Assembly (NCBI GenBank): GCA_913775175.1
Contig: CAJYKU010000013.1
Coordinates: forward strand, 17,639 to 81,638
Direction of reading: 5' to 3'
Length of the DNA: 64,000 bases
Origin: an uncultured Pantoea sp.
GTDB taxonomy: Bacteria > Pseudomonadota > Gammaproteobacteria > Enterobacterales > Enterobacteriaceae
Shown here: piece by piece, positions 42,520-50,163 of the stretch
Layout of the letters: each line of letters opens with the position of its first letter
Position numbering within the stretch: the first letter of the stretch is position 1
Position numbers and translations under genes: made by a program
The notes under the pieces: model-generated
The model's input: only the letters and a program-made list of their open reading frames with translations
Told to the model about the DNA's origin: nothing
Databases searched by the model: none

Positions 42520-43875
42520 ATGGAACAACAGCATGGCGAAGCGCTGCATCGTGGCCTGAAAAATCGCCATATTCAGCTGATTGCACTGGGCGGTGCGGTA
42601 GGCACAGGCCTGTTTCTGGGAAGCGCTTCAGTGATTAAATCGGCTGGCCCGGCCGTTATCCTCGGCTATGCAATTGCCGGATTTATTGCCTTTTTGATTA
42701 TGCGTCAGCTCGGGGAAATGGTTGTTGAAGAGCCGGTTGCAGGCAGCTTCAGTCATTTTGCTTATAAATACTGGGGAGACTTCGCTGGCTTTGCCTCAGG
42801 CTGGAACTACTGGGTGCTCTATGTACTGGTGGCAATGGCTGAGCTCAGCGCTGTAGGCAAATATATTCAGTTCTGGTATCCCGAGTTTCCTGCCTGGGCC
42901 AGCGCCGCAATCTTCTTTATCGCCATCAACGCGATTAACCTGACGAACGTAAAAGTCTTTGGCGAAATGGAGTTCTGGTTCGCGATTATCAAAGTTGTCG
43001 CCGTGATCGGCATGATCCTGTTTGGCGGCTGGCTGCTATTTAGCGGCAACGCAGGACCACAAGCCTCAGTCACCAACCTGTGGAATCAGGGCGGGTTTCT
43101 GCCGCACGGCATGACGGGTCTGGTCATGATGATGGCGATCATTATGTTCTCTTTTGGCGGTCTGGAGCTGGTGGGGATCACCGCCGCAGAAGCGGACAAT
43201 CCGCAAGAGAGTATTCCCAAAGCAACAAATCAGGTGCTGTGGCGTATTCTGATCTTCTATATCGGTTCACTGACGATACTGCTTTCGCTGCTGCCCTGGA
43301 CACGCGTTACTGAGGATACCAGTCCATTTGTACTGATTTTCCACGAGCTGGGTGATGCGCTGGTTGCTAATGCCCTGAATGTGGTGATCCTGACCGCTGC
43401 CCTCTCTGTCTATAACAGCTGTGTTTACTGCAATAGCCGTATGTTGTTTGGTCTGGCGCAGCAGGGTAATGCACCAAAAGCACTGCTGAAGGTTGATCGC
43501 CGTGGCGTGCCGGTAATTACTATTATGGTTTCCGCAGTCGCTACCGCCGTGTGTGTACTGCTTAACTACCTGATGCCAGGCGAAGCATTCGGCATTCTGA
43601 TGTCGCTGGTGGTCTCTGCTCTGGTGATAAACTGGGCGATGATCAGCCTGGCGCATATGAAATTCCGCCGCAAAAAAGATCAGCAGGGTGTTACAACCCG
43701 CTTCAGAGCGGTGTTCTATCCAGCCGGTAACTGGCTCTGCCTGCTATTTATGGCCGCAGTGCTGGTGATTATGGCAATGACGCCCGGTATGGCTATCTCA
43801 GTCTGGCTAATCCCGGTCTGGCTGGTAGTTCTGGGTATCGGCTACATCATTAAGAACAAAACCCAGAAAGCCTGA
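42520..43875 (+). CDS. aroP: Aromatic amino acid permease
   Basis: APC family; HRGLKNRHIQLIALGGAVGTGLFLGSASVIKSAGPAVILGYAIAGFIAFLIMRQLGEM; position next to pdhR. Confidence 0.92.
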   Translation: MEQQHGEALHRGLKNRHIQLIALGGAVGTGLFLGSASVIKSAGPAVILGYAIAGFIAFLIMRQLGEMVVEEPVAGSFSHFAYKYWGDFAGFASGWNYWVLYVLVAMAELSAVGKYIQFWYPEFPAWASAAIFFIAINAINLTNVKVFGEMEFWFAIIKVVAVIGMILFGGWLLFSGNAGPQASVTNLWNQGGFLPHGMTGLVMMMAIIMFSFGGLELVGITAAEADNPQESIPKATNQVLWRILIFYIGSLTILLSLLPWTRVTEDTSPFVLIFHELGDALVANALNVVILTAALSVYNSCVYCNSRMLFGLAQQGNAPKALLKVDRRGVPVITIMVSAVATAVCVLLNYLMPGEAFGILMSLVVSALVINWAMISLAHMKFRRKKDQQGVTTRFRAVFYPAGNWLCLLFMAAVLVIMAMTPGMAISVWLIPVWLVVLGIGYIIKNKTQKA

Positions 43876-45084: not shown

Positions 45085-45636
45085 TCAGGAATTTTCCTGC
45101 TTAATACTCTGTTTATAGCGTACCCAGTCAAACGCAGGACCGGGATCGGTTTTGCGCGCCGGGGCGATATCGCTATGCCCGATAATACGATCGGCGGTTA
45201 GCGGATAGTGTTGCAGCAGCAGTGCTGTTACCTGCTGCAGAGTGACATATTGCGCATCGGTATAAGGCAGCGTATCTGTGCCCTCCAGCTCAATGCCAAT
45301 GGAGAAATCGTTGCAGTTTTCCCGATCGCCGAACTGCGAAATCCCGGCATGCCAGGCTCGCTCATCCAGGGAAACATATTGTACCAGCTCGCCATCGCGC
45401 CGAATCAGGCAGTGAGCCGCCACGCGCAGTTGCGCAATATCAGCAAAAAAGGGGTGTGCGTCAGCGGGCAGCGTGCCGGTAAAAAGACGGTCGATCCATG
45501 GCCCGCCAAATTCCCCCGGTGGTAAGCTGATATTGTGAATAACCAGCAGCGATGGCACTTCACTCTCCGGGCGCGTATTGCAGTGCATTGAGGGCACTTT
45601 CCGGGCCGTGCTAATCCAGCCCTGTTCGAGTTTCAT
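45085..45636 (-). CDS. ampD: 1,6-anhydro-N-acetylmuramyl-L-alanine amidase
   Basis: [52 protein letters not shown]; start trimmed to 45636. Confidence 0.96.
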
Positions 45637-45881
45637 CTCACTATTCCTTAACAAAATCTGGCTGAGGATATCATGATTTTCAGCGCGGTTTTGCGACTTC
45701 ATGCGCCAGCCCTCTCTTGTTTACTATGATAAAAAATGCGCAAAACCTGATATTACCTCTGCCGGGCAGACTGGTGCGTCATTCCTGACTATGGCGTTCA
45801 GCATGGTTATGGATATCCACAGCAACTGCTGCTTACCAGATTAAAGAACAGCTCCGGAGATGTTGCCCCTGCGATTGCAGC

Positions 45882-45963
45882 CTGCATACATCACAGCGGC
45901 AAAACCGCAGGTGAGACCAGGTCAGAGTGTGCGTTCGCTCCGCAAAACAGATGATGTATGCAG
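45882..45963. repeat. Spaced inverted repeat upstream of ppdD
   Basis: CTGCATACATC (45882-45892) and GATGTATGCAG (45953-45963), a perfect 11-bp inverted pair. Confidence 0.6.
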
Positions 45964-46070
45964 TAACGCATTACAATTGTTGTGCAATGTTTTCCAGCGA
46001 TGCGGCAATCTGCTTTTGCGCTTCTGCCACTTTGATTACCGTGACGGCTCTGTGTAAAAGGAGCCCGGCT

Positions 46071-46520
46071 ATGGAAAGACAACACGGTTTTACCCTGATT
46101 GAACTTATGATTGTTATCGGCATTGTCGCGATTCTCAGCGCGATTGGCCTGCCAGCTTATCAAAACTATCTGCAACGGGCAGCGCTGACTGACATGTTGC
46201 AGACCATGCTTCCCTACAAAACTGCTGTCGAGCTTTGCGCTATTGAGCGAGGCGGCCCCGCGCAGTGTCAGGCCGGCGAACGCGGTATTCCGCCAGCTAA
46301 AGGCTCACGCTATGTCGCGACTCTGGATGTCACAAATGGCGTGATTACCATGACTGGCCAGGAGAGCCTGAGTGGTCTGAACGTTGAGATGCAGCCAGTC
46401 TGGAGTAACACAGAAGGAACGCTAAGCTGGCAGCGCAGCTGCACCAGTGACAACATCAGCCTGCGTGATAACTGTCTGGAGCAGTTCCGCTTTGCCGATG
46501 GAGATAACAGTAATGAGTAA
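46071..46520 (+). CDS. ppdD: Prepilin peptidase-dependent type IV pilin
   Basis: MERQHGFTLIELMIVIGIVAILSAIGLPAYQNYLQRA; class III signal with G/FTLIE cleavage site. Confidence 0.95.
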   Translation: MERQHGFTLIELMIVIGIVAILSAIGLPAYQNYLQRAALTDMLQTMLPYKTAVELCAIERGGPAQCQAGERGIPPAKGSRYVATLDVTNGVITMTGQESLSGLNVEMQPVWSNTEGTLSWQRSCTSDNISLRDNCLEQFRFADGDNSNE

Positions 46521-47901
46521 GCACGATCCGGCTCTGGTCACCTTGTGCGATCGTTATCAGGCACAACTGTTACACCACGACGACAGGGTGCTACGCGTTG
46601 CGGTTGCAGAATCCCCTCACCCGCAGCTACTGGAAGCGTTGCAGTTTGCCAGTCAGTGTACAGTGGAGATTGAGTGCTGGCCTGCTGCACGCCTGGAGCA
46701 GGCGCTGCATCAATCGGAGAACGGTGCGGCTTTATCAGAGCAGCACAGCGCTGAGTCAGCCACGGAAGTCGTTGATTATCTTCTGCGCCAGGCGATACAA
46801 CGACGCGCTTCAGATATCCATATTGAACCACAGCCGCAGGGGCTGCGTATCCGGTTACGTATTGATGGTGTGCTGCACAATCTGCCCCGCCTGCCAGAGA
46901 TGCAGCCTGCTGCGGTGCTTGCGCGCCTGAAAGTGCTTGCTGCTCTCGATATCGCAGAACGGCGTCTGCCGCAGGATGGGCAGTTTACGCGCGAGCTCGA
47001 TGAGTATCAGGCTGCATTTCGCCTTGCGACCCTGCCGGTAAGCTATGGCGAAAAGGCGGTAGTACGCCTGCTACAGAGTGAAAACAGCGCTATCGCACTG
47101 GATAAACTGGGTATGCCGCTGGCGCAACTGCGCCTGCTAAAGCAGGCACTGGCAAAACCTCAGGGATTGATTCTGGTCACCGGCCCCACTGGCAGCGGGA
47201 AAACCTTTACCCTCTATAGCAGTCTCAGTGCGCTTAACGTGCCGGAAAAAAATATCTGCAGCGTCGAAGATCCGGTAGAGATACCGTTAAACGGAATCAA
47301 CCAGACTCAGGTACAACCGCGCAGCGGGCTCGATTTTAATCGCATATTGCGCGCACTGCTGCGCCAGGATCCGGATGTGATTATGGTTGGCGAGATCCGC
47401 GACAGCGAAACTGCCAGCATTGCGGTGAAAGCAGCACAGACCGGTCATCTGGTGATATCCACGCTTCACACCAATTCAACCGCAGAGACGCTGACGCGAT
47501 TAAGGCAGATGGAGATCCCGGGTTATCTGCTGGGGCCGGCCCTGCAGCTGGTGATCGCTCAGCGGCTGGTTCGTCGCCTGTGTGTACATTGCCGGCAACC
47601 GGCCCAGGCGATTGCACATTTGCCATCGGCGATCTGGCCCGGTACGCTACAAACCTGGCGTGCGCCTGGCTGCGATCACTGCTTTTCTGGCTATTATGGT
47701 CGTCTGGCGTTATTCGAGCTCTTACCCGTTAACAATAAGCTGCAAAATGCGATTTCATCGGAGATGCCGCTGGAGCATCTGCTTCAGCTTGCCAGCCAGC
47801 AGGGGATGAAAACATTACAGAGCGCCGGACTTGAAGCAGTAAGCCGCGGAGACACCTCTTTCGAGGAGATGCAGCGCATAACGGGAATGGATGATGGCTA
47901 A
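46513..47901 (+). CDS. hofB: Type IV pilus / type II secretion assembly ATPase (HofB/GspE family)
   Basis: Walker A GPTGSGKTFTLYSSL; AQTGHLVISTLHTNSTAETLTRL; CVHC...CDHC zinc motif. Confidence 0.93.
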   Translation: MSKHDPALVTLCDRYQAQLLHHDDRVLRVAVAESPHPQLLEALQFASQCTVEIECWPAARLEQALHQSENGAALSEQHSAESATEVVDYLLRQAIQRRASDIHIEPQPQGLRIRLRIDGVLHNLPRLPEMQPAAVLARLKVLAALDIAERRLPQDGQFTRELDEYQAAFRLATLPVSYGEKAVVRLLQSENSAIALDKLGMPLAQLRLLKQALAKPQGLILVTGPTGSGKTFTLYSSLSALNVPEKNICSVEDPVEIPLNGINQTQVQPRSGLDFNRILRALLRQDPDVIMVGEIRDSETASIAVKAAQTGHLVISTLHTNSTAETLTRLRQMEIPGYLLGPALQLVIAQRLVRRLCVHCRQPAQAIAHLPSAIWPGTLQTWRAPGCDHCFSGYYGRLALFELLPVNNKLQNAISSEMPLEHLLQLASQQGMKTLQSAGLEAVSRGDTSFEEMQRITGMDDG

Positions 47902-49093
47902 ACTCTATCAGTTTAGCTGGCAGGCGCTTGATAGTATGGGCGCACTACAGAGCGGAGAGTCGCTGCTGAAAGATCGGGAAGCCCTGCTGCATCAGCTTTC
48001 TGACCGGGGTTTGCTGATAGTCAGCTGGCAACGCGGCCGAGCCTGGCACTGGCGCGACTGGAAGTGGCAGCAGAAGATCGAGTTAATGGAGCAGCTCTCC
48101 ACCCTGCTTAAAGCTGGATTGCCGCTGGCTGAAAGCCTGACATTGCTGGCTCAGGATCACCCTCACAGCGGATGGCGAATTGTACTGAACGAACTCCAGC
48201 AGCAGGTGATGGCAGGCCAGCCCTTCTCACGGGCTTTGCAGAGCTGGCCTCGCCTTTTCCCGCCGCTCTTCTCCGCTCTGGTACAGGTAGGGGAAACCAC
48301 CGGGCAGCTCGATAGCTGCTGCCTGCGACTGGCCCGACAACAGATAAAACAGCGGCAGCTGCGGCAGAAGACGGCTAAAGCACTGCGCTACCCGCTGTTT
48401 ATTCTGCTGGTGGCGCTGCTGGTCAGTGCCGGTATGCTGCTGTTTGTGCTTCCTGAATTTGTGGCGGTCTACGCCAGCTTTGAAGCGCCGCTGCCCGCAT
48501 TTACTGCTGGCGTAGTCGCGCTTTCTGAGCTTCTGCAGCGGATAGCGCTACCGCTGTTAGTGCTGACTACCCTGCTGGCTTTAGCTGTACGGCAGTTCTG
48601 GCGGCGTTCAGCTCGCTGTCAACGCTGGGCTGAACAGTTGCTACTGCGTATGCCGCTCATCGCACCACTCTGGCGCGGTGCACAACTTAGCCAGATATAT
48701 GCCATTTTAGCGCTAACGCAGCAGGCCGGACTCACGCTGCTGCAGAGTTTGCAGGCCGTTGAAATCACACTGACCGCTCGTCTCTGGCGGGAAGCGATAG
48801 CTGGCCTGCAGACGCATATAGCTGCTGGTGCTCCGCTACATCAGGCATTACAACAGCACGCGCTTTTTACACCGCTATGCGCACAGCTGATTGGCGTAGG
48901 TGAGGAGGCTGGTGCGCTGGATACCATGCTGGCCCGGCTGGCAGAGTGGCACGAGACTGAAACATCGGCACGAGCAGAAGTGCTGGCAGCCGCGCTGGAA
49001 CCAGCCATGATGCTGGTGGTGGGCGCTATCGTTGGTACGCTGGTAATTGCGATGTATCTGCCGGTATTTAGCCTGGGAGAAGTGATCGGTTAA
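47891..49093 (+). CDS. hofC: Type IV pilus inner-membrane platform protein (HofC/PilC/GspF family)
   Basis: Two GspF-like domains: LSTLLKAGLPLAESL, LTQQAGLTLLQSLQAVE; VGEEAGALDTMLARLAEWHE. Confidence 0.93.
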   Translation: MMAKLYQFSWQALDSMGALQSGESLLKDREALLHQLSDRGLLIVSWQRGRAWHWRDWKWQQKIELMEQLSTLLKAGLPLAESLTLLAQDHPHSGWRIVLNELQQQVMAGQPFSRALQSWPRLFPPLFSALVQVGETTGQLDSCCLRLARQQIKQRQLRQKTAKALRYPLFILLVALLVSAGMLLFVLPEFVAVYASFEAPLPAFTAGVVALSELLQRIALPLLVLTTLLALAVRQFWRRSARCQRWAEQLLLRMPLIAPLWRGAQLSQIYAILALTQQAGLTLLQSLQAVEITLTARLWREAIAGLQTHIAAGAPLHQALQQHALFTPLCAQLIGVGEEAGALDTMLARLAEWHETETSARAEVLAAALEPAMMLVVGAIVGTLVIAMYLPVFSLGEVIG

Positions 49094-49122: not shown

Positions 49123-50163
49123 TTAACGGGTAAAGACGCGATTTTCCTGCTCCGCTACGCGGATAAACGTAGTGCGCTTGGTGAGCTCTTTCAGACGTTC
49201 CGCACCTACATAGGTACAGGCGGAACGCAGCCCACCCATAATATCCCGGATGGTCTCATCAACCGGGCCGCGCAGTGGCAGACGAACAGTTTTGCCCTCT
49301 GCGGCACGATATTGCGCTACACCACCGACATGCCGCTTCATGGCAGATTCGGAACTCATGCCGTAGAACAGCATAAATTGTTCGCCCTGCTCTTCAACAA
49401 TGGTGCCTTCACACTCATCGTGTGCCGCCAGCATTCCGCCAAGCATTACAAAGTCAGCACCGCCGCCAAATGCTTTGGCGACATCACCTGGAACCGCACA
49501 GCCGCCGTCACTGACAATCTGTCCGCCCAGTCCGTGTGCTGCATCAGCACATTCGATAACGGCAGAGAGTTGCGGATATCCCACACCGGTTTTTACCCGG
49601 GTGGTGCAGACAGAACCCGGGCCGATACCAACTTTCACGATATCCGCGCCTGACAGGATTAGCTCCTCAACCATCTCACCGGTTACAACATTACCTGCAC
49701 AGATGGTTTTGTCCGGAAAGTGCTCGCGGGCACGCTGCAGAAAAGTAACAAAGTGTTCAGAGTAGCCGTTAGCGACATCGATACAGATAAATTTAAGCTG
49801 TGGAGAAAGCGCCAGAATGGCATTAAGTTTACTAAAATCAGCCTCAGAGGTGCCGGTTGAAACCATGATGTAATCAAGCACGGACGCTGGCACACGCTGA
49901 ATAAATGCCTGCCATGCCCCGACACTGTAGTGTTTATGCACTGCAGTAAGCACGTTAAAATTTGCCAGGGCTTCTGCCATGGTAAAAGTACCAACGGTAT
50001 CCATATTTGCGGCAATGACAGGTACCCCGCTCCAGCTGAGTCCGGAGTGTTTAAAGGTAAATGTGCGTGCCAGCTCCACATCAGAACGGCTTTTCAGCGT
50101 GGAACGTTTCGGGCGGATTAATACATCCTTGAAGCCCAGTTTGATATCTTCTTCTATACGCAT
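49123..50163 (-). CDS. guaC: GMP reductase
   Basis: [55 protein letters not shown]. Confidence 0.97.

Follow-up and report, generated by a model that had tools for sequence, protein, structure and literature searches.

What has become of nadC, the gene that relatives carry between ampD and ppdD, in a Pantoea genome where these two neighbours lie only 434 bp apart? The interval belongs to a 64-kb stretch of DNA (the window) from a genome assembly of 2.43 Mb in 45 contigs that is 74.65% complete (G000 among the genomes compared here). The features of the locus are as follows.

42520..43875, + strand: aroP, synteny marker (95% identity in L011 and L012)
45085..45636, - strand: ampD, left flank, intact (NF008758, E 1.1e-86; 87% identity to strain Russ)
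45637..46070, no strand: ampD-ppdD interval, 434 bp, the nadC position in relatives, nadC deleted
45718..45735, + strand: orphan NadR-operator-like site TGTTTACTATGATAAAAA, 1 mismatch to TGTTTA-N6-TAAACA
46071..46520, + strand: ppdD, type IV pilin-like, right flank, intact (NF007862, E 4.9e-66)
46516..47901, + strand: hofB ATPase, intact synteny marker (NF007755, E 1.7e-213)
47891..49093, + strand: hofC, assigned from position and reading frame (400-aa ORF after hofB)
49123..50163, - strand: guaC, synteny marker (full-length identity 87-94% in most Pantoea loci)

The ampD-ppdD interval

The preliminary description of this locus had reported a gap of about 430 bp with no NadC reading, lying among ampD, ppdD, hofB and hofC. 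Both observations hold: a tblastn search of the whole 64-kb window with E. coli NadC found nothing, and local alignment of positions 45761-46070 with the nadC genes of six relatives revealed no coding remnant (p 0.13-0.31). The family models identify ampD, ppdD and hofB as intact, while hofC is recognized by position only, and hofC followed by guaC after hofB is the usual gene order. A scan of positions 45500-46200 against Rfam found no RNA family.

A search of named genomes with AmpD yielded 80 loci. In 78 of them nadC accompanies ampD/ppdD, mostly no more than about 1.2 kb away, although the distance reaches about 4-5 kb in some Erwinia and Mixta. The gene is absent only from the loci of strains Russ (L011) and LMG 5346 (L012), which are the two closest relatives of the window among the 80. 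The ampD-ppdD interval is 306 bp in Russ and 305 bp in LMG 5346, and about 1.14-1.37 kb in most loci that carry nadC. Since 78 of 80 homologous loci have the gene and the exceptions are the closest relatives, the short gap is neither chance nor a misreading. The window does come from a fragmented and partial assembly, in which a misjoin introduced by assembly or binning might be suspected, but the same gene order with an equally short interval is present in the independent isolate assemblies of Russ and LMG 5346; the suspicion is thus refuted and we give it practically no weight.

The interval also varies in the other direction. In L051, L053, L063, L085 and L087, from Erwinia and its relatives, nadC is about 4-4.5 kb from ampD, and other DNA has therefore entered the interval in several Erwinia.

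Three empty nad loci

Neither PF01729 (QRPTase_C) nor TIGR00078 (the full nadC model) finds nadC in the approximately 75% of the genome represented by G000. Of the 62 genomes compared within the genus, those that lack nadC are G000, strain Russ (G252, P. borealis), P. eucrina LMG 5346 (G262) and G296; Russ and LMG 5346 are both 99% complete. We rejected G296 as a further loss: it has intact nadA and nadB but no close hofB (best match 48%), and since hofB is missing along with nadC while the other two genes are kept, its ampD-hofB region is probably an unassembled assembly gap. Both nadA and true nadB are absent from exactly G000, Russ and LMG 5346, so that these three of the 62 genomes, and no others, are without all of nadA, nadB and nadC. 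The only strong match to the nadB model in the three is a 588-aa protein that scores below the cut-off and occurs in essentially every member of the genus, and which we take as the succinate dehydrogenase SdhA.

The sites themselves are easily recognized. Relatives have nadA in the arrangement ada / ogt-nadA-pnuC / zitB and nadB in the arrangement trmN6(yfiC) / nadB / rpoE-rseA; in all three genomes ogt is followed by pnuC with nadA gone, and trmN6 by rpoE at a distance of about 360-380 bp with nadB gone, the neighbours being intact in both cases. No decaying remnants of nad genes were found at the three sites in these genomes, and the empty sites with intact flanks thus point to three separate clean deletions. 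The sites are unlinked and far apart in strain Russ, lying on one 2.63 Mb contig at about 0.38 Mb (nadB), 1.86 Mb (nadA) and 2.24 Mb (nadC). The loss of nadC proposed in the preliminary description therefore stands, although its extent was understated, as the event takes in the whole de novo pathway, three loci and a whole clade.

Because G000 is only about 75% complete, the case for the absence of genes from it relies on Russ and LMG 5346, each 99% complete. This incompleteness (74.65%) leaves room for supposing that nadA, nadB and nadC have moved to a part of the chromosome or of a plasmid within the unassembled 25%, and that the strain is a prototroph. All three genes would then need to hide in the missing quarter, but all three syntenic sites are present and empty in G000, and neither Russ nor LMG 5346 carries any of the three genes elsewhere. 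Such a relocation is very improbable, and nadC has been lost rather than moved in both G000 and its near-complete relatives. The search for the de novo genes together with pncB, which had been recommended as a check, finds the three de novo genes absent and pncB kept.

Two further observations concern nad genes elsewhere. The draft genome of P. wallisii LMG 26277 (G304, the source of L014) has frameshifts in nadA, nadB and nadC, with 11 of 53 genes flagged, and was considered as a case of nad gene decay; it was set aside, since the same single-base deletions occur in housekeeping genes and the frameshifts look like sequencing errors. The many single-base deletions in conserved genes of this draft (L139-L143) make pseudogene calls in it unsafe. 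In the wider family, a QRPTase_C match is lacking in 47 of 246 sampled members, a set that includes many small, symbiont-sized genomes, and thus nadC loss is not rare.

Placement of the host and a residual operator

A maximum-likelihood tree built from AmpD, AroP, HofB and GuaC places the window as sister to Russ plus LMG 5346 (support 100/100) and puts the clade among the P. dispersa/P. rodasii branches of Pantoea. An alternative topology, in which L011 and L012 group with strain Mb-10 to the exclusion of the window, is rejected (p-AU 8e-6). Mb-10 (L025, which is G317, with the same coordinates as G292) is the nearest strain on the tree that has nadC (branch support 87/91), and it keeps nadA, nadB and nadC. 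LMG 5346 is the type strain of P. eucrina, and strain Russ, filed under that name, has been reclassified as P. borealis (PMC10665919). The window genome shares about 92% identity with Russ over the four proteins, and the synonymous divergence (dS) of its pncB from those of the relatives is about 1.0, so that it represents a distinct species.

An Erwinia-like host had been suggested on the strength of the nicotinic acid requirement of Erwinia amylovora; the tree instead places the host in Pantoea, beside P. eucrina and P. borealis. The expected phenotype is the same as in E. amylovora, but the genus is another, and E. piriflorinigrans, a relative in the fire-blight group, has both nadC and nadA. 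Nor does the genome resemble that of a reduced insect endosymbiont, as 45 of 48 reference genes in four regions are intact in G000 and the remaining 3 are truncated where the compared stretches end.

The empty interval has one feature that bears on its history. The NadR operator has the consensus TGTTTA-N6-TAAACA, and the site at 45718-45735 is the only one in the 64-kb window with at most one mismatch (0.02 expected). Its distance from the start codon of ampD is 82 bp, and the same 82-bp offset is found for a NadR-like site before nadC in L013, L014, L021, L023, L024 and L025. More generally, of 35 loci from Pantoea and its close kin (L013 to L046 and L049), all but L044, hence 34, have a NadR-like site with 0-2 mismatches ahead of nadC, at a distance of 82-142 bp from the start codon of ampD; E. 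coli and the other enterobacteria examined showed none. The orphan operator-like site at this shared offset, a fossil of the nadC promoter region, is direct evidence that the interval once lay ahead of nadC. The wider distribution suggests that NadR may govern nadC in Pantoea.

Pantoea relatives also carry NadR-like sites before nadA and before nadB, in agreement with the regulon described for Enterobacterales, which comprises nadA-pnuC, nadB, pncB, niaP and nadR, with nadC not mentioned (PMC5343134); the site before nadC is an addition in Pantoea and its close kin. In the three genomes that have lost the genes, pnuC still has a NadR-like site ahead of it (1 mismatch in G000, 2 in Russ and LMG 5346), which fits a nadA-pnuC operon trimmed to pnuC alone, and none is left at the nadB site. 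In these three genomes and in G302, the stretches that carry pncB have no NadR-like site at two or fewer mismatches.

The tree needs only one change of state to accommodate the loss of the nad genes, and a single ancestral loss is the simplest account because the three genomes form one clade. We also weighed independent deletions in the window lineage and in the ancestor of P. eucrina and P. borealis, to which the different lengths of the residual nadC gaps (434 as against 306 bp), the survival of the orphan operator in the window only, and the distance of the window genome from Russ and LMG 5346 (the pncB dS value given above) could all be attributed. Against this, the clade is supported at 100/100, a single change is enough, and each of the three genomes is empty at every one of the loci; parallel loss is thus unlikely. 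We are confident in the alternative, that the nadC gap is an old, clean deletion and that three unlinked deletions removed the de novo NAD pathway in the ancestor of the clade.

Salvage and the expected phenotype

In the proposed course of events, nadA, nadB and nadC would have been deleted in the common ancestor of the window Pantoea, P. eucrina and P. borealis, removing the route from aspartate to NaMN. Aspartate cannot be turned into quinolinate when NadB and NadA are missing, and quinolinate of either origin, the cell's own or imported, cannot become NaMN when NadC is missing (PMC8207962). Lacking all three enzymes, the cell should live on nicotinate, nicotinamide or nicotinamide riboside, with NAD presumably formed from nicotinate via PncB, from nicotinamide via PncA and PncB, and from nicotinamide riboside via PnuC and NadR. 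The nadA promoter and operator would have been kept because they still drive pnuC. The likely cause is relaxed selection where plants, animals or neighbouring microbes reliably supply vitamin B3.

The salvage genes are consistent with this scheme. Full-length pncB and a pnuC gene are present in all three genomes. The near-complete Russ and LMG 5346 genomes also have intact pncA and nadR, neither of which was found in the 74.65% complete G000 assembly. Comparison of the window genome with its relatives gives dN/dS values of about 0.05 for both pncB and pnuC, and the salvage route is therefore under purifying selection. The pnuC gene of LMG 5346 (L104:2869-3596) reads in two frames near its start, which may be a draft error. 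Within the same genus, four genomes are a mirror image of the present case, with pncB absent (G274, G288) or interrupted by stops (G286, G289) and nadA, nadB and nadC kept; three of the four are small (1.4-2.9 Mb).

The best reading of these gene complements is a stable, lineage-wide vitamin B3 auxotroph, and the clade probably must take up environmental vitamin B3 to make NAD. The need for nicotinate or nicotinamide anticipated in the preliminary description is thus retained as the expected phenotype, predicted from the loss of nadA, nadB and nadC and the retention of pncB. We are more tentative, at a little under an even chance, about the fuller proposal that obligate B3 scavenging in this free-living clade dates from before the species split, that the three de novo genes were discarded while the nadA operator was kept for pnuC, and that NadR controls nadC with an operator that outlived its gene.

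Our literature search found no report that P. eucrina requires nicotinate, and two published points run counter to the expectation or stand beside it. A sponge isolate, 'P. cf. eucrina D2', was cultured in a mineral salts medium without vitamins, having been identified by 16S only and inoculated as washed cells from rich broth (PMC7504411). Carry-over is possible because of that inoculum, and a firmer identification has been asked for (PMC10665919); we take this culture as a weak hint against auxotrophy. Palmer et al. (2018) scored nadABCX in 21 of 21 Pantoea, including the P. eucrina genome MIPP (PMC5808187). That scoring is not reproduced by our search of the MIPP assembly.

Events of this kind are already known. 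Shigella and some E. coli have likewise lost de novo NAD synthesis and kept salvage, and niacin is expected to restore growth; in these, mostly nadA or nadB is mutated, while nadC is kept and quinolinate remains usable (PMC8207962). In the Pantoea clade all three genes are cleanly deleted, and quinolinate should therefore not rescue growth. Tatumella, in the same family (Erwiniaceae), lacks the whole pathway (nadABCX in 0 of 3), but is a separate lineage, and every Pantoea in that table, P. eucrina among them, is scored as gene-positive (Palmer et al., 2018; PMC5808187). What is new here is the clade, the complete and clean loss at three loci, the operator left behind as a fossil, and the occurrence in Pantoea of a NadR-like site ahead of nadC, with the suggestion that NadR governs this gene.

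In summary, P. eucrina and P. borealis, species with isolates from both clinical and environmental sources, are predicted to depend on external vitamin B3, and the published table that counts P. eucrina as pathway-positive (PMC5808187) is corrected. Defined media for these species may need nicotinate. Since Mb-10 keeps all three genes, it and the clade offer a clean natural comparison for understanding the ecology that allows NAD synthesis to be lost in a widespread bacterium that is not a symbiont.
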